Part shown: one piece after another, positions 16,871-24,472 of the stretch
Layout: each line of letters opens with the position of its first letter
Position numbering within the stretch: the first letter of the stretch is position 1
Assembly: GCA_002239065.1 (NCBI GenBank)
Contig: MPNO01000014.1
Coordinates: 1-64,000 of the forward strand
Direction: 5' to 3'
Length of the DNA: 64,000 nucleotides
DNA from: Defluviicoccus sp. bin129
GTDB lineage: Bacteria; Pseudomonadota; Alphaproteobacteria; MPNO01
Made by a program: the position numbers and the translations under genes
The notes under the pieces: model-generated
The model's input: only the letters and a program-made list of their open reading frames with translations
What the model was told of the DNA's origin: nothing
Database searches by the model: none

Positions 16871-19385
16871 GTGTCGTCGGACAACCCGGTCACCCCCTTC
16901 GACGGTCCCAACTCCTATGTCGGCCGAGTGCTGTCGCGCCCCGGGGCGCGGCGGGCGGTGCGGGGGCGGGGCCGCTATACCGACGACATCTCGCTGCCCC
17001 GCATGGTGCACGCGGCGTTCGTCCGCAGCCCCTACGGCCATGCCCGCATAGTCCGCATCGACACGGGCGCGGCGGCGGCGCATCCCGGCGTGGTCCGCGC
17101 GATGACCGGCGCAGAGCTCGCCGAACACTGCCCGCCCTGGTCGGGGATGCTGACCAGCTTCGAGGGGATGAAGGCGGCCTGGCAGCACGCGATGGCGACC
17201 GACCGGGTGTGCTGGCAGGGCGAGCCGGTGGCGGTGGTCTGCGCGCGGACGCGGGCCGAGGCCGAGGACGCCGCCGAGCTGGTCGAAATCGAGTGGGAGG
17301 AGCTTCCCGTCGTGATCGACAAGGAGCGGGCGCTCGGCCCCGGCGCCACCGTGCTCCACCCCGAGCTCGGCGACAACCTCGCCTGGCGCCGCGACATCGA
17401 CAACGGCGACGTCGATGCCGCCTTCGCCGCCGACGGCGCGGTGACGGTCGAGGAGACCTACGAGTTCGGCCGCCACACCGCGGTCAGCCTGGAGCCGCGC
17501 GCCGTGCTCGCCGACTGGGACAAGGGAACCGAGAAGCTCACCGTCCATACCTCGAGCCAGGTGCCGCACATGATCAAGACCGTGTTCGCGCGGCACCTGC
17601 CGGTCGACGAGCACAACATCCGCATCGTGGCGCCCGATGTCGGCGGCTCGTTCGGGCTCAAGATCCACACCTATGGCGACGAGGTCGCGGTCTGCGCGCT
17701 GGCCATATTGCTCGACCGGCCGGTCAAGTTCGTCGCCGACCGGCTGGAATCCTTCGTCACCGACATCCACGCCCGCGAGAACCGGATCCGGGCGCGCATG
17801 GCCCTCACCCGAGAGGGCGAGATCACCGCGCTCGAGATCGACGACCTGTCGGGCGTCGGCGCCTATTCGCAATACCCCCGGACCAGCGTGTTCGAGGCCA
17901 ACCAGATCCTCAATATCGCCGGCGGGCCGTACCGGCATCCCAACTACCGGGCGGTGGCGCAAATCGTCTATCTCAACGGCGTGCCGACCTCGCAGTATCG
18001 CGGCGTCGGCCACCCGATCGGCATCTCGGCGAGCGAGGCGCTGCTCGACCTCGCAGCCGCGACCGTCGGCATGGACCCGGTCGAGCTCCGCCGGCGCAAT
18101 TTGATGGAGGACGACTCCTACCCACGCCGGACCGCGTCGGGCGTGCATGTCCAAGATCTGTCGCACCAGGCCTGCCTGGAGCAGCTCGTGGAACGCATCG
18201 GCTACGCGGACCTGCGCGCCGAGCAGGAGCGGCTGCGCGGCGCGGGGGTGTGGCGCGGCATCGGCGTGTGCTCCTTCATCAAGGGCACCGCGCCCGGCCC
18301 GGAGGGCTATTACGGCGCCGGCAAGGCGCCGATCGCCTCGCAGGACGCCTGCACGATGAGCCTGGAGCCCGGCGGCGGCGTGCTGTGCGCCGTCGGCGTC
18401 ACCGAGCAGGGCCAGGGGGCGGACGCGGTGATGCGCCAGATCGCGGCGACCGCCGTCGGCGTTCCCATCGAGCGCGTCCGGGTGATCTCGGGCGATACCG
18501 ACGCGGTGCCCTATGGCGGGGGCACCTATGCGAGCCGGGCGACGGCGATCGGCGGCGAGGCGACATGGCTCGCCGGCCGCGCGCTCCGGACGGAGATCCT
18601 GCGGCTCGCCGGCGCGCTGTTGCAGACCGCGCCCGAGCGGCTCGACGTGGGCGGGGGCGAGGGGGGGGACGCACGCGGGGGCCGCGCCCGCCACCCCCCC
18701 CCCCCGCGCGGTCCGGACGGAGCGCCTGCGGCTCGCCGGCGCGCTGTTGCAGCCCGCGCCCGAGCGGCTCGACGTGGCCGGCGGCGAGGTGGTCGACGCA
18801 GGCGGCGGCGCGCCGCGCATCCCGCTCGCCGAGATCGGCCGGATCGGCCATTTCCAGATCGGCGAGCTGCCCAACGACATCCAGCCCGAGCTCACCCAGA
18901 CGCGGCATTTCCGGCTGCGCGACCGGATCTACATCTTTACCAACGGCGCGCACGCCTCGCATGTCGAAGTCGATGTCGAGACCGGTCTGGTGCGGCTGCT
19001 GAACCACTGGGTGGTGGAGGATTGCGGCCGGGTGATCAACCCCTTGCTGGCCGACGAGCAGGTCCGCGGCGGCGCCGTGCAGGGGATCGGCGGCGGGCTC
19101 TACGAGCACTGCATCTACGACGACAACGCGCAGCTCCAGAACGGCACCATGGTCGACTACCTGACGCCGATGGCGCTGGAGATGCCCGACATCGACGTGG
19201 CCCATGTCCAGACGCTCACCGCCGAATCCGAGCTCGGCGCCAAGGGCGTCGGCGAATCCGGCGTCGGCGGCGCGCCGTCGGCGGTGATGAACGCGGTCAA
19301 CGACGCGCTGAGGCCGTTCGGCGCGCGGGTGACGGAGCATCCGATCACGCCGGAGACCGTGCTCCGGGCGCTCGGGCGGGTGTGA
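16871..19385 (+). CDS. molybdenum hydroxylase large subunit (xanthine dehydrogenase/CoxL family), frame broken as assembled
   Basis: Molybdopterin-binding large subunit of the xanthine dehydrogenase/aldehyde oxidase/CO dehydrogenase family. Start is GTG 16871 after AGGAGCG. The first frame runs to about 18650, then a 127-base duplication with G/C-homopolymer flanks shifts the frame; the rest reads on to 19385 in the next frame. Removing 127 bases gives one continuous gene of 795 residues, the normal length. Visible family motifs are GRGRYTDDISLP near the N-terminus, QYRGVGHPIG at the cofactor loop and the catalytic-Glu motif GVGESGVGG near the end. The loop lacks the CO dehydrogenase AxSR signature, so it is not a true CoxL. 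No FAD or iron-sulfur subunit gene is adjacent. Confidence 0.88.
18581..18800. other. probable assembly scar: 127-bp-offset duplication with poly-G/poly-C middle
   Basis: Bases 18585-18650 recur at 18712-18777 with three mismatches, offset 127. Rightward of copy 1 the sequence still follows copy 2, but with many positions changed to G; leftward of copy 2 it follows copy 1 with positions changed to C, ending in a long C-run (18694-18705). This is what two contig ends with decaying base quality would look like when joined without merging their overlap. The offset restores the frame exactly. Confidence 0.8.
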
Positions 19386-19431
19386 GGCGGGGCGATCAGC
19401 GTAATCCGGGGGCGGGCGCGCGCCCTGCCGC

Positions 19432-21738
19432 TCAGCCGCTTCCACCCATGCGCGTCCTCCGGAAGGTCAGTGAAATTCGTCGAGACCGTTCGGTCCACCT
19501 GCCCTTGCCCGGCCGGCCCCTTCGCGGTTCGTTCTCCCGCTTCGGGATTTCATGCTTCCACCTGTACCTCGCATCGCCCGCCAGGATTGCAACGCTGCGA
19601 CGCTCGAGGGGTTGGTAGATCGGTTTCTCTTTGCGGCCAAGGGTAAACCGCATGTCCCATGTCTCGATCAGGCTGACAGTCGCTATGTGCTCGGCGAAGT
19701 CGTCTGGATGGTCGATGTGGGGCGCGATGCCCTGTTTGCCGACATATTCGTTGACGATCACCTGATCGGGCAGGTCCGGCATCAACCCTTCGTCAACGAG
19801 CCTGTGGCCCAACTCGTGCGCCCATTCGGGCAGCGCGGGCGCGCGGTCCGATTCGTCGATTCCGCGCTTCTTGTAGTCGTAGCGCCACCCATAGTGCTGT
19901 ACACGGCGTTGAAGCTCCGTGCTCCACTCGGCTCCATCGATCCACTCCAAGAGATGGGCCTCTTCTTCCTGGGTGATGAAATCCGGCCTGTAAATCAAAC
20001 CCGTCGGCTCGACTGCAGACCGGGCACGATCGGCCTGCGGCAAGTCCGTAGCGATGACATCCTCCGTCACCGACGGGACACGATAGGTCTCCGGCGGTTC
20101 CATAACGACGCCAGCCACGGCCTCGAACGGGCGAGGAAAGACCTCCGGTGGGTCTGGAACGACGCCGGCTTCGGTCGCCAGCCCGCGACGAAACTTGTCG
20201 GGATCCACTCGTTCTTCGATGTCGATGTTCTCCGGCAGTCGAAGGCTCTTCTCCCCTTCAACGACAAGATCGTCTCCATCGACGAACCAGTAGCCGCTTC
20301 CATCGGCACGCAAGCGGCCTTTCGGCAAAGAAAGGCGGCGCTCGATGCACGACCATGCCAACCGAACGGCGAGTTCCCGGGCCGCCTTGTCGGCGGCGGT
20401 GGCGGTCAGGTCGGCGGCGTACCACTTGGCGCGGGCTTTCCACTGCTTGCGAAGGACGGGTGCGCCGCGCCAGGCCAAGGTGAAATATCCGTCCTCGTCC
20501 ATTGGTTCGAGGGGAGACCGTCGAGAGGGCGGCAGCGCTGCCGCCTCGCCACCCGGCCAGGAAGCCGCCAGAGCGCGGGTCGCCAAGAATTCCCGAAGCC
20601 CGGCGTCACCGCGGAATTCCTTGTGGAGCGCCCGGTAGCCGTGGCGCCATCCGCACAAGATGGCGGCGGCCCACCACACCCCGGGCGGCAGGCCCGGCAG
20701 GTCCTGGTTCCAGGATCTGAACCTCGTCGGGTCTGGCCGCAGCAGGGCGAGCCATATGGCGAGGCCCGCGCCGTTTCCTCGCCAATCGTCGCAGGATACC
20801 GTCTCATTCCCCGCGACGATCCGTCGAGTCCGCTCCAGCCAGGGGTTCGTGTCGTCGAGGCGCGCTGCCCGCGCTATTCGGTCGGCGAGTGCGGCGGGGG
20901 ATTCTTCCCCGGCGTTTGGCCATTCCATACAGGACAATGCCGCCCGCCACAGCCGCTCCTGATCGTCCGAACCGGCTCCAACACCTTCCGAGCGGTCTCC
21001 GCCCAGCCAGGGGAGTTGCAGCCATTGCGCATCGAGCCGTACGGTTTCTTCCGCGACCCCGGCCGCGTTTCGTCCGAGGGCCCGGCGCAGGACCTTGATC
21101 CACGGCTCCATATGGGGCACCGCCCAAACCGCCATCGCCATCGCCCCCTGTACGGCGTTCAGGGCCTCGGGCAATTCCAGCGGTCGGGTTTCCGGGGTCC
21201 CAGGATCGCCCGCCGGTGGAGGTTCCGGCGCGAAGTCGGTCACCACGACGGGCGCATCCGGCAAGGAGAGGTTGGAGAATTGCCCCGCCATCGCGAGGAG
21301 ATGCGTCTTCTGTTCGTCGGAGGGGACTTCGACGGTCTTGACCGCGTAGAGGGGGAGCGGTGCGCGCCAGCGAACGACCGGAGAGACGCCGCCATCCTCG
21401 CGACCAGCCGCGGCGCGTTCCAGGTCCTTCCACGCTTCCGGGAAGGGGAGCTCGTCGACGTCGAACGACAGCCGTACCGGGATCGCGTTGCGCCCCGCCG
21501 AAAGCTCCTCCGATACGAAGCTCTCCCGTCCCAGGAAAGAGCAGGCGTTGGCGCGTGGCCGCAGCCACCCGTCCTGGCTGGCGTGGAACAGCCTTCGATG
21601 GCTCGCCACCAGGCCGAGCCAGGTCGGAAAAGTCGGGTCGATCCCGGCAACCGCATCCTGGGCTGACACATTCCCACCGGCGGCACGCCGCCTGCCCCCG
21701 GGTCGATCCGCAAACGCGAACTCTCCCTGTCCGCTCAT
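19432..21738 (-). CDS. large protein with unknown N-terminal region and C-terminal AlkB-like 2OG-Fe(II) dioxygenase
   Basis: A 768-residue protein. From about residue 580 it is an AlkB-family dioxygenase: NEYVGKQGIAPHID gives the conserved Asn-x-Tyr and the iron ligands His674 and Asp676; YRWKHEI gives the distal His (about 729); RISLTFR gives the two arginines that bind 2-oxoglutarate. The set is complete, so the domain should be catalytically competent, acting on alkylated or modified nucleic acid. I do not recognise the first ~550 residues; they are mixed alpha/beta, Trp-rich (WLGLV, WIKVLRRAL, GVWWAAAILCGW) and without membrane segments or obvious catalytic motifs. ATG 21738 overlaps the helicase stop (ATGA), so it is the last gene of a three-gene operon. 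Confidence 0.82.
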   Translation of the reverse strand: MSGQGEFAFADRPGGRRRAAGGNVSAQDAVAGIDPTFPTWLGLVASHRRLFHASQDGWLRPRANACSFLGRESFVSEELSAGRNAIPVRLSFDVDELPFPEAWKDLERAAAGREDGGVSPVVRWRAPLPLYAVKTVEVPSDEQKTHLLAMAGQFSNLSLPDAPVVVTDFAPEPPPAGDPGTPETRPLELPEALNAVQGAMAMAVWAVPHMEPWIKVLRRALGRNAAGVAEETVRLDAQWLQLPWLGGDRSEGVGAGSDDQERLWRAALSCMEWPNAGEESPAALADRIARAARLDDTNPWLERTRRIVAGNETVSCDDWRGNGAGLAIWLALLRPDPTRFRSWNQDLPGLPPGVWWAAAILCGWRHGYRALHKEFRGDAGLREFLATRALAASWPGGEAAALPPSRRSPLEPMDEDGYFTLAWRGAPVLRKQWKARAKWYAADLTATAADKAARELAVRLAWSCIERRLSLPKGRLRADGSGYWFVDGDDLVVEGEKSLRLPENIDIEERVDPDKFRRGLATEAGVVPDPPEVFPRPFEAVAGVVMEPPETYRVPSVTEDVIATDLPQADRARSAVEPTGLIYRPDFITQEEEAHLLEWIDGAEWSTELQRRVQHYGWRYDYKKRGIDESDRAPALPEWAHELGHRLVDEGLMPDLPDQVIVNEYVGKQGIAPHIDHPDDFAEHIATVSLIETWDMRFTLGRKEKPIYQPLERRSVAILAGDARYRWKHEIPKRENEPRRGRPGKGRWTERSRRISLTFRRTRMGGSG

Positions 21739-22829
21739 GGCCGCTCCAGGAATTCGGGGCCCGGCAACCGATCGAGGAGCGCATCGGGCAAACCGTCGCC
21801 CTCATGCATCAGAAAGAGGTTATCCCGCGCCCGAGCGCAAAGCATGTACATCTTGCGTTGATTCACCGCGTTGCTGTGGAAAAGAAGCTCGCCGATCTCC
21901 ATGACGAAGACGGTGTCGAATTCCTGCCCCTTGATCGACCCCACGTTGAGGATCGTGATTCCCCGTTCCAGGAGGTCGATCTGGTCCTCGTTTTGCCTCT
22001 CGGTTGTATAGATTTGAACAGGTTGTCCCGGGAGCCGATCGCGCAAGCCGGAATACAGGCTCTCACCCGTACCGTTGCGGACCACGGCGACGCCGACGCG
22101 CCCGCCTCGCGTATTGTACCAGTTGGCGATCAGCGCGGTCGCGCTGTCGAGGCGGTACGCCACCGCGCGGGGCAGTTCGCCCGACCGACGGCGCTTCACC
22201 TCGGGAATCGGGGCAGCCCCCGCGTGGAAGTGCTCGGCGACGCGCGCGATTTCGGGCGTGTTGCGATGGTTGGCGTTGAGCAGGACCGGATCGCCAAAAC
22301 GCCCCTCGACCTGGATGTCGCGAAGCGTGGAACGGTCCGCGCGGAGGGCCTGGTCCTCGTCCGCGAACACCGTGACGGCGTTCGCCACGAAATCCCGGAG
22401 GTAACGGAAAAGCGACCGGGGAAGGTCCTGGGCTTCGTCGACGATCGCGTGGACCGGTCCCGGTGTGACGCCGCGCTCTTCCAGCGTCTCGTGCATCGCC
22501 TCCCAGATGTAGTCATAGCGATTGCCCTCCCTGGACGGCACCGGGGCGGCCGCCTGTCCGCGGTAGTGGCGGCTCACGAAGCTGTGCATGGTGCGCGCGT
22601 CGACCCGCCCCTCCGTCAACTGGGCAATGAGACGGCGGAGCATCCGGTTGTAAGCGATGATCACCGCCGGCCTCTTGGCTTCGGCCAGCATCTGGGCGCG
22701 GTAAACCGCGAGCACCGTCTTGCCCGAGCCCGGCGGTCCCACCACGAACAGCGAATCGTCGAACGCCGTCTCATAGACTTCAAGCTGATTCTCGTCGCTC
22801 GCGATCTCTTCGTAGGTAGGCAGCCGCAC
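21735..22829 (-). CDS. UvrD/DUF2075-like superfamily 1 helicase or NTPase, compact
   Basis: Superfamily 1 NTPase of 364 residues, about half the length of UvrD and lacking its large accessory subdomains. Motifs in order: Walker A FVVGPPGSGKTVLAVYRA (about 26-43), Walker B AIVDEAQDLP, motif III-like region (VFADEDQAL), an NANHRN segment resembling motif IV, motif V SIKGQEFDTVFV and motif VI RKMYMLCARARDNLFL. All are intact, so it should hydrolyse ATP on single-stranded nucleic acid. The start is GTG 22829, one base after the methyltransferase stop and preceded by GGGGA; the longer open frame upstream overlaps that gene and is not needed. It is translationally coupled to the AlkB-fusion gene. 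Confidence 0.87.
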   Translation of the reverse strand: MRLPTYEEIASDENQLEVYETAFDDSLFVVGPPGSGKTVLAVYRAQMLAEAKRPAVIIAYNRMLRRLIAQLTEGRVDARTMHSFVSRHYRGQAAAPVPSREGNRYDYIWEAMHETLEERGVTPGPVHAIVDEAQDLPRSLFRYLRDFVANAVTVFADEDQALRADRSTLRDIQVEGRFGDPVLLNANHRNTPEIARVAEHFHAGAAPIPEVKRRRSGELPRAVAYRLDSATALIANWYNTRGGRVGVAVVRNGTGESLYSGLRDRLPGQPVQIYTTERQNEDQIDLLERGITILNVGSIKGQEFDTVFVMEIGELLFHSNAVNQRKMYMLCARARDNLFLMHEGDGLPDALLDRLPGPEFLERP

Positions 22830-22830
22830 G

Positions 22831-23670
22831 TCATTCCCCGAGGCACAGAACCCGCCGCTGCGGGCGATGGAAGAGGGCGTAATAGAGGCTACGATTCTGT
22901 AAACGGTCCCTACGCTCGACGACGATCTCCTCCTGATCTTCGGCATGCAGTTCAAAACCGGCCGCCTCCAGCAATTGCCGAAACTCCGGATACCGGCGGT
23001 TGGGCTGCCGCCGGGTAGAGTTGGTGTAGAGCAGCGTCACGGCGCCTCGGCCGAGCCTGTCGAGCAGGCCTTCCAGGTCGCCGAACATGGCTTCGACGTC
23101 CAGGGTGGGGCTTGCGAACAGGTAAGACAGGATCACGATCACATCCCGCCATCCGGGGCGGTGCGGCCAATCCACCGCGCCCATGCCGATAGCCCAACGC
23201 GCCCTTACGCGTCCGGGTATGTGATCCGAGCCCGCTAGGCGGGCACCCAGCCGTCGCATCGATTTCGCACGGTCGATACCGATATAGTCGAAGCGCGTCT
23301 CGTCCCCAAGCGTCGCCGCCAGAGCGAGTCCTCCGGTGAAGGGACCGCAGCCTATATCCACGACGATGGGGTTCTCCGGCCGCGCGCCAGCCAGGAGCTG
23401 GCCGAAAGCGGTAACCAGTTCCTCGACGTGCCCCCTCTGGTTCATGAACGCGTAGAGCAGCGCCAGGTCGTCCGGGGACAAAGTTCCCAATTGGGCGTCG
23501 AAGTCGGCTTGACCGCGGCCGATGGCTTCCACCGCCTCGTCCATGGTCATGCCGAAGCGCGTGCCGCCATGCGATCGGGGATCGTTGCGGACCGGGCCGA
23601 TGATTTCGTCTCTCCGCAACTCGTCGAGCCAGCCCGGCATCTGCACGGCGTCCAACACAACCCCCTGCAC
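22831..23670 (-). CDS. class I SAM-dependent methyltransferase-like protein
   Basis: About 279 residues. The central part has the Rossmann methyltransferase core: motif I IVVDIGCGPFTGGLALA (about 102-118), an acidic residue after strand 2 (YIGIDRAK) and a strand-4 region (DVIVILSYLFASPTLDVEAM). The usual NPPY/DPPY motif of base-N-methyltransferases is not visible, so DNA-base methylation is not supported; RNA, small-molecule or protein targets remain possible. It heads the three-gene cassette. The start is uncertain: GTG 23670 gives the full frame, while ATG 23640 suits a TATACT -10-like element at 23694-23689 on this strand. Confidence 0.8.
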   Translation of the reverse strand: MQGVVLDAVQMPGWLDELRRDEIIGPVRNDPRSHGGTRFGMTMDEAVEAIGRGQADFDAQLGTLSPDDLALLYAFMNQRGHVEELVTAFGQLLAGARPENPIVVDIGCGPFTGGLALAATLGDETRFDYIGIDRAKSMRRLGARLAGSDHIPGRVRARWAIGMGAVDWPHRPGWRDVIVILSYLFASPTLDVEAMFGDLEGLLDRLGRGAVTLLYTNSTRRQPNRRYPEFRQLLEAAGFELHAEDQEEIVVERRDRLQNRSLYYALFHRPQRRVLCLGE

Positions 23671-23730
23671 TACAAGCTGCCGCAGGTCAGTATAGCGCGC
23701 TCGACGACGGGTGGGTTCGCCCCGACTCGC

Positions 23731-23755
23731 GTCATGCCGGCGATCGCGGCATGAC
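23731..23755. repeat. REP-like palindrome at the edge of the cassette
   Basis: GTCATGCCG (23731-23739) and CGGCATGAC (23747-23755) form a perfect 9-bp inverted repeat with a 7-base loop in the gap between the methyltransferase gene and the next GST gene. Similar small palindromes occur at 15.9 kb and in the 38-kb cluster. Confidence 0.55.
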
Positions 23756-23827
23756 GCTCCACCTCCCGTTGCCGCGCCGGGCGGGAGTTTCTAGGCTCCA
23801 ACCGCGATTTCCCGACGAGAGGACATC

Positions 23828-24472
23828 ATGGACATCACCCTCTACTACGCGCCGGTCACCTGCGCGCTCGCGCCCTGGATCACGCTGACCGAAGCCGGGG
23901 CGGAATTTGAGGTCAGGCCGCTCAACCTCGGCCGCCGGCAGCACATGTCGGCGGACTACATGGCGATCAACCCCAAGCACAAGGTGCCGCTCTTGGCGGT
24001 CGACGGCGAGACGATGACCGAGAGCACGGCGATCCAGCTCTGGATCGCGCGCGCCTTCCCGGAAGCCGGGCTGCTGCCCGACGACCCGTGGCGGGAGCTC
24101 GAGGCGATCTCGCTGCACTCCTGGTGCTCGTCGGGCATCCACCCCTATCTCAGCCGCATCAACGCCCCGCCCCGGGTGTGCGACGTGCCGGGCGCGGACG
24201 ACAACGTGGTCGGCCACGCGCGGGAATATTTGACCGAGGCGTTCGGCATCGCGGACGGCATGCTGGAGGGGCGCGCGTACTTCTTCGACCGCTTCACCAC
24301 GCCCGATGCGCATTTCTTCTGGTGCTGCCGGCGCGCGACCCAGTTCGACTTCGACCTGACCGCCTTCCCCAACACCGCCGCCCATTTCGAGCGCATGCAG
24401 GGCCGTGACAGCGTGCGCAAGCTGCTCGCCTACGAAAAGCGGGTCATGGACGACTTCGCGAGCGCGGCGTAG
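23828..24472 (+). CDS. glutathione S-transferase
   Basis: GST of 214 residues, the usual length. The N-terminal domain begins MDITLYYAPVTCALAPWITL, with the catalytic Ser/Cys position occupied by TCA, as in beta-class-like bacterial enzymes, followed by the cis-Pro segment HKVPLLAVDG and the glutathione gamma-Glu contact TESTAIQLWI. The C-terminal domain is all-helical. It starts at ATG 23828 after GAGAGGACATC. It precedes the second TRAP operon by 69 bases on the same strand, and is not closely related in sequence to the GST at 15.96-16.73 kb. Confidence 0.9.
   Translation: MDITLYYAPVTCALAPWITLTEAGAEFEVRPLNLGRRQHMSADYMAINPKHKVPLLAVDGETMTESTAIQLWIARAFPEAGLLPDDPWRELEAISLHSWCSSGIHPYLSRINAPPRVCDVPGADDNVVGHAREYLTEAFGIADGMLEGRAYFFDRFTTPDAHFFWCCRRATQFDFDLTAFPNTAAHFERMQGRDSVRKLLAYEKRVMDDFASAA

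Follow-up and report, generated by a model that had tools for sequence, protein, structure and literature searches.

Bacterial ALKBH8-like AlkB proteins, such as those of Roseobacter denitrificans and Rhizobium etli, were compared in an earlier study (PMC4051686). In two bacterial ALKBH8 proteins, that of Roseobacter denitrificans included, repair was substantially lower or negligible, the Rhizobium etli homolog repaired etheno adducts, and an Agrobacterium mutant of the bacterial ALKBH8 homolog kept an unaltered tRNA-Gly wobble modification (PMC4051686). The known members of this group are single-domain proteins. Eukaryotic ALKBH8 falls in the same AlkB subgroup and works with a methyltransferase, but as a single protein that carries RRM, zinc finger and methyltransferase domains and has no helicase. 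A compact SF1 NTPase followed by a protein that we call X is found in DISARM-like operons of Photobacterium, Deinococcus and two genomes examined here (G676 and G483), and a Streptomyces operon of this kind has no recognised X. For ARMADA, Druantia, BRIGADE and TALON, a YprA-like helicase is the criterion (PMC12458937), and restriction-modification and other nuclease-based defences have a nuclease domain.

The locus described here lies in a 64,000-nucleotide stretch of Defluviicoccus sp. bin129 (contig MPNO01000014.1), hereafter the window. Its AlkB domain shares with the bacterial ALKBH8-like group the catalytic motifs (NxY, HxD...H, RxxxxxR) and the RRVQHYG segment; however, it is fused to a 530-residue X-like region and stands in an operon with an SF1 NTPase and a methyltransferase, the latter not recognisably that of ALKBH8. 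The SF1 NTPase is of the same family as that of the DISARM-like operons (27-34% identity) and is likewise followed by X, but the cassette has neither DrmA nor DrmB and begins with the methyltransferase gene. It also differs from the YprA-type systems, since the SF1 NTPase is its only helicase-type protein and no YprA-like helicase was found. The cassette appears to join two older pairs, SF1 with X and methyltransferase with ALKBH8-like AlkB. Our best reading is that it is neither DISARM nor a tRNA-wobble operon, and we consider it fairly probable that it is a mobile nucleic-acid-targeting defence unit, most likely directed against phages.

Gene organization, insertion and conservation of the cassette

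The three genes are read in one direction, as a preliminary description of the letters had proposed, and lie on the minus strand (Table 1). The stop codon of the methyltransferase gene is followed after a 1-base gap by the SF1 gene, and the start of the fusion gene overlaps the SF1 stop in an ATGA (21735-21738). The lower G+C content remarked on in that description is clear at third positions, 0.76-0.82 against 0.91-0.96 in four clean downstream genes, whereas the gap in total G+C with the same genes is small, 2-5 points (0.65-0.66 against 0.68-0.70).

Table 1. Positions in the window of the cassette genes, their domains and the inserted interval.
Feature	Position	Strand	Remarks
Gene 1, class I SAM methyltransferase-like, 279 aa	22831-23670	minus	GTG start
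Gene 2, compact SF1 (UvrD/HelD-like) NTPase, 364 aa	21735-22829	minus	GTG start
Gene 3, X-like region fused to AlkB domain, 768 aa	19432-21738	minus	ATG start
X-like region, fusion residues 1-530	20149-21738	minus	hhalign to X of DrmA-DrmB-SF1-X operons
Alpha/beta domain with possible DarT/Tpt1-like fold, fusion residues 38-170	21229-21627	minus	Structure model, Foldseek; canonical DarT residues not conserved
ALKBH8-like AlkB Fe(II)/2-oxoglutarate dioxygenase domain, fusion residues 575-765	19444-20016	minus	Catalytic residues intact
Inserted interval, cassette with short non-coding edges	19395-23827	no strand	Flanking homology to cassette-free congener G659

In the window, the cassette is an insertion, and its occurrence is rare and patchy. 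Homology with the congener G659 ends at 19394 and restarts at about 23827, and in that genome the flanking genes are some 215 bp apart with the slot empty. Similarity between the window and G279, another carrier, is confined to the cassette itself (19451-23655). The cassette is present in two of five genomes of the window's genus and in one of eleven in the order of G279, and among 399 genomes drawn from the phylum, the fusion N-terminal region and the methyltransferase were matched in the window's own genome only. No strong new methyltransferase match outside the cassette turned up in the Pseudomonadota searched. A phage origin was considered and discarded: relatives of the fusion N-terminus, the SF1 NTPase and the AlkB domain were absent from 50,697 phage records, and IMG/VR scans returned remote SF1 matches only.

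The fusion was found in six genomes, all of them drafts and the majority MAGs, and in 6/6 the three-gene order and the fusion are identical. The carriers are the window, G279 and MAGs assigned to Defluviicoccus (L024), Proteobacteria (L025), Synechococcus (L026) and Gammaproteobacteria (L027), so that they span Alpha- and Gammaproteobacteria plus one Synechococcus bin, some of the genomes being sponge-derived. The encoded proteins are 50-80% identical to those of the window, and the cassettes occupy five unrelated places across the six genomes. Purifying selection acts on each of the three, dN/dS being 0.22-0.38 in all genes and pairs tested. The preliminary description had taken the genes for one unit, while allowing that they might rarely co-occur elsewhere or that the N-terminal region of the fusion might belong to a mundane enzyme family; the genes stand together in every one of the six genomes, and the N-terminal region matches the X protein of DISARM-like operons (see below). 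The cluster is thus not due to chance, because its order recurs without exception and all three genes are selected. An accidental cluster or a decaying cargo would agree with the internal stop at codon 212 of the Defluviicoccus MAG methyltransferase (L024:732-1562) and with the frame break that splits the SF1 gene in the Synechococcus MAG, but the co-occurrence, the conserved order and the dN/dS values already contradict it, and we give it hardly any credence.

Two further features of these copies were observed. The L024 methyltransferase is further from that of the window than the G279 one is, although the SF1 and fusion proteins of L024 are nearer. In the L026 fusion (L026:2098-4668), an insertion of some 80 aa reads like a SAP motif, with a Pfam E value of only 0.1.

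The SF1 NTPase and the X region

The SF1 protein, noted from the outset as complete but short, has motifs I, II, III, IV, V and VI in its 364 aa (Walker A GPPGSGKT, Walker B DEAQD, ADEDQ, NHRNT, SIKGQEFD and ARAR in the window), and they are conserved among 5-8 relatives. Relatives on plasmids, at about 30% identity, sit in operons annotated as helicase, DUF1998/DrmB and SF1, usually with X, and the window protein matched the Deinococcus SF1 with an E value of 3.5e-42 in a small database. G676, which is from the same order as the window, has the operon with DrmA (E 4e-206) and DrmB (2e-64) ahead of SF1 and X, and a NERD helicase gene follows (L053:2198-11723). The DrmA-DrmB-SF1-X arrangement is found as well in G483; loci of this kind, with a compact SF1, include L020, L021, L023 and L087, and L022 lacks a recognised X. 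None of the X proteins of these operons has a Pfam or PADLOC model above threshold, and the operons are possibly an undescribed relative of DISARM. When the 399 genomes were surveyed for SF1, 28 matched; the window's own genome aside, only G483 clearly belonged to this SF1 family, with G642 as a remote member, and most of the others had open frames of about 600 aa that we took as other UvrD-like proteins.

The first 550 or so residues of the fusion had been described as unrecognised. No model in PADLOC, Pfam, NCBIfam or PHROGs matches the fusion N-terminus, in agreement with that statement, but the region does have relatives, as it is homologous to the X encoded behind SF1 in the DISARM-like operons. 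Its profile aligned end to end with the X of G676 (columns 44-527, hhalign probability 95.3%, E 2.1e-8) and reached 91% probability against a five-member X alignment; against the Photobacterium-type X by itself the match was local (19%, E 0.001), and against the Deinococcus X there was none. The idea that X is a common family was dropped after the G676 X, as query in a search without a positive control, matched nothing in plasmids or in 240 genomes from the class. X lies directly after SF1 both in the cassette and in the DISARM-like operons. Because X is homologous and stands right behind SF1 in both settings, SF1 and X form one ancestral pair, with AlkB fused to X here. The cassette was also considered as a DISARM system and ruled out: PADLOC found no DrmA, and Pfam and PADLOC no DrmB/DUF1998, among the three proteins.

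The AlphaFold2 model of the X region has a mean pLDDT of 49. Residues 38-170 form an alpha/beta domain with pLDDT blocks mostly of 64-87; outside them the model is poor, and 171-530 have no reliable structure. With residues 38-170 of this low-confidence model, the best five Foldseek matches were DarT and Tpt1 (E 0.013-0.05, probability 0.99-1.00), DarT standing at E 0.013 and probability 1.00, and the X model found nothing in a viral fold library. The catalytic residues of DarT are H13, N19, R51 and E160 (PMC9967889). In a by-eye alignment, in which R51 could not be placed, H13, N19 and E160 had no conserved counterpart in X, and no sequence match of X to DarT was obtained, Pfam PF14487 included. 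X could be thought of as an active DarT-type ADP-ribosyltransferase toxin under the control of AlkB or the methyltransferase, making of the cassette an abortive-infection or toxin-antitoxin unit. The fold matches speak for it, but the model is of low confidence, the sequence tests failed, the key residues are missing and the macrodomain antitoxin (DarG) is not among the three genes, and we therefore rejected X as an active toxin and hold such a unit to be very improbable. The two may still have a common fold, and residues 38-170 of the model are possibly an inactive ADP-ribosyltransferase-like, perhaps nucleic-acid-binding, domain.

The AlkB domain and its methyltransferase partners

The AlkB dioxygenase reported at the C-terminus is intact. 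Pfam PF13532 matched fusion residues 618-760 with an E value of 1.2e-17, and the catalytic residues (N663-x-Y665, H674-x-D676, H729 and R754/R760) are invariant across six homologs. The parallel drawn earlier with ALKBH8 stands, as ALKBH8 is the nearest solved structure to the domain, which clusters with the bacterial ALKBH8-like members (PMC4051686) and apart from E. coli AlkB. In the tree, the AlkB domains of the fusions make up a single clade (support 1.00), which groups as sister with the Roseobacter denitrificans plasmid protein and L005 (0.92).

The methyltransferase, which had been called SAM methyltransferase-like, matches Pfam weakly (E 0.015-0.02). Its model (pLDDT 79.5) adopts a class I SAM methyltransferase fold, and the protein has a motif I of DIGCGPFTGG and an acidic residue in YIGIDRA. 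Chains of a ribosomal complex, which we take to be METTL17, the search table naming the complex only, were nearest to the model, and other rRNA methyltransferases were also close. On plasmid pAQ6 of Picosynechococcus PCC 7002 (L104:9163-21899), a methyltransferase gene precedes an ALKBH8-like AlkB gene within a same-strand run of cas10, Cmr3, Cmr4, a RAMP gene and TPR and WYL genes, of the type III-B CRISPR kind. The pAQ6 methyltransferase matches PADLOC model C3a159 with an E value of 5e-136 and that of the cassette with 1.2e-8 over residues 68-143 only, and a direct profile comparison (HMM) of the two gave 2e-20; from these scores, the cassette protein is probably a distant relative of C3a159. 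The pAQ6 pair resembles the cassette in this adjacent methyltransferase and in its AlkB (40% identity), but it has no SF1 or X, its AlkB is a separate gene and it is linked to cas10, the Cmr genes and a WYL protein. On pAQ5, a methyltransferase-AlkB pair lies behind a reverse transcriptase (RT) of DRT families and a WYL protein, with an Abi gene also adjacent; the pair was found in PCC 7003 too, and in G262 a more distant methyltransferase homolog (E 2e-11) overlaps AlkB. In four alphaproteobacterial genomes (L003, L006, L009 and L013), a stand-alone ALKBH8-like AlkB gene is right behind the gene of a BMT5-like (uridine-N3) rRNA methyltransferase, a candidate writer/oxidiser pair. Methyltransferase with ALKBH8-like AlkB is a recurring pair in view of the pAQ6, pAQ5, G262 and BMT5-like cases. 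One related AlkB gene comes immediately after dinB.

These associations bear on two functions of the host cell. The cassette could be an RNA-modification operon, in which methyltransferase and AlkB carry out a two-step modification of tRNA or rRNA and SF1-X serves as the RNA remodelling part. Animal ALKBH8 offers a model for this, and the closeness of the AlkB domain to ALKBH8, the BMT5-like neighbours and the resemblance of the methyltransferase model to rRNA enzymes are consistent with it. However, the cassette is rare, patchy and recently inserted, SF1-X belongs to DISARM-like operons and the pAQ6 pair is CRISPR-linked, and we find such an operon unlikely. A role of the ALKBH8 type in tRNA-wobble modification is not favoured, since tRNA-Gly was modified as usual in the Agrobacterium mutant (PMC4051686) and since the mobility and patchy occurrence of the cassette speak against it. 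Alternatively, SF1 would open DNA or RNA for AlkB to remove alkyl or etheno adducts, in the manner of ALKBH3 and its helicase partner. The intact catalytic residues, the etheno adduct repair of the Rhizobium etli homolog (PMC4051686) and the single dinB neighbour point in this direction, but a repair unit has no place for a dedicated methyltransferase, repair by the Roseobacter homolog was negligible (PMC4051686), and the patchy distribution and the CRISPR and DISARM links argue otherwise. The ALKBH3 comparison made in the preliminary description found no specific support, and we consider a repair unit quite unlikely.

A putative defence function

Nucleic-acid-targeting defence is the function that we favour because two independent pairs, each near antiviral genes elsewhere, appear merged in a mobile, selected cassette, one copy of which (L025) adjoins AbiLi/AbiLii, PDC-S36 and HipA genes. 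Against this reading, the neighbours of the cassette in the window, G279 and L027 look metabolic or transport-like, none of them being recognised as a defence gene, and the carriers are all drafts, with an internal stop in one methyltransferase copy and a frame break in one SF1 copy. The unit is absent from the PADLOC defence library, in line with the first impression that it was not a described system, and the literature searched, mostly without subscription papers, held no system joining AlkB with such partners and nothing relevant on AlkB together with defence, DarT or type III CRISPR. Most systems compared with the cassette contain a nuclease, and no nuclease family was matched in its proteins by PADLOC, Pfam, NCBIfam or PHROGs, residues 171-530 of the fusion being structurally poorly modelled.

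We infer the target, the reaction order and the defence role from the parts, conservation, insertion and two associations of the cassette, all of which are read from sequence. SF1 and X, as the sensor/translocase part of the DISARM-like operons, would load on and move along foreign or replicating nucleic acid, and AlkB would reach it as cargo of X through the fusion. The methyltransferase may methylate a base or an RNA residue, and AlkB may hydroxylate or remove the group made by the methyltransferase or by the phage. Since no nuclease was detected, the modification would block or mark the nucleic acid, or the phage would lose its protective marks, and cutting is not the expected end. Taken by itself, this order of reactions is tentative and rather unlikely to hold as drawn.

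We know of no AlkB-based immune system. The cassette might be the first with an AlkB dioxygenase as effector, which SF1-X would deliver to invading DNA or RNA; AlkB and the methyltransferase would then install an oxidised methyl mark or strip the protective methylation of the phage, base chemistry taking the place of cutting. We regard this as somewhat doubtful. The SF1-X half is already shared with the DISARM-like operons, and the AlkB-effector idea would be the more novel one if shown. Bacterial ALKBH8-like AlkBs need not repair well and leave the expected tRNA without modification (PMC4051686); the cassette and the pAQ6 pair, in which such AlkBs are repeatedly beside methyltransferases in antiviral gene neighbourhoods, provide a testable hypothesis. 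The cassette shows in addition that the SF1-X pair of DISARM-like operons is portable as a module, and that it can be rewired where DrmA and DrmB are missing.

The site between the CoxL-like and GST genes (window 19394-23828; L054, L055) is variable, being empty in G659 and filled by the cassette in the window; in G660, as judged from sequence reading alone, the same slot appears to hold an FAD monooxygenase gene. In the window, the flanking xanthine-dehydrogenase/CoxL-like gene (16871-19394), which is intact in L024, contains a duplicated stretch around which its frame changes, at about 18.5-18.7 kb, by mutation or assembly error.
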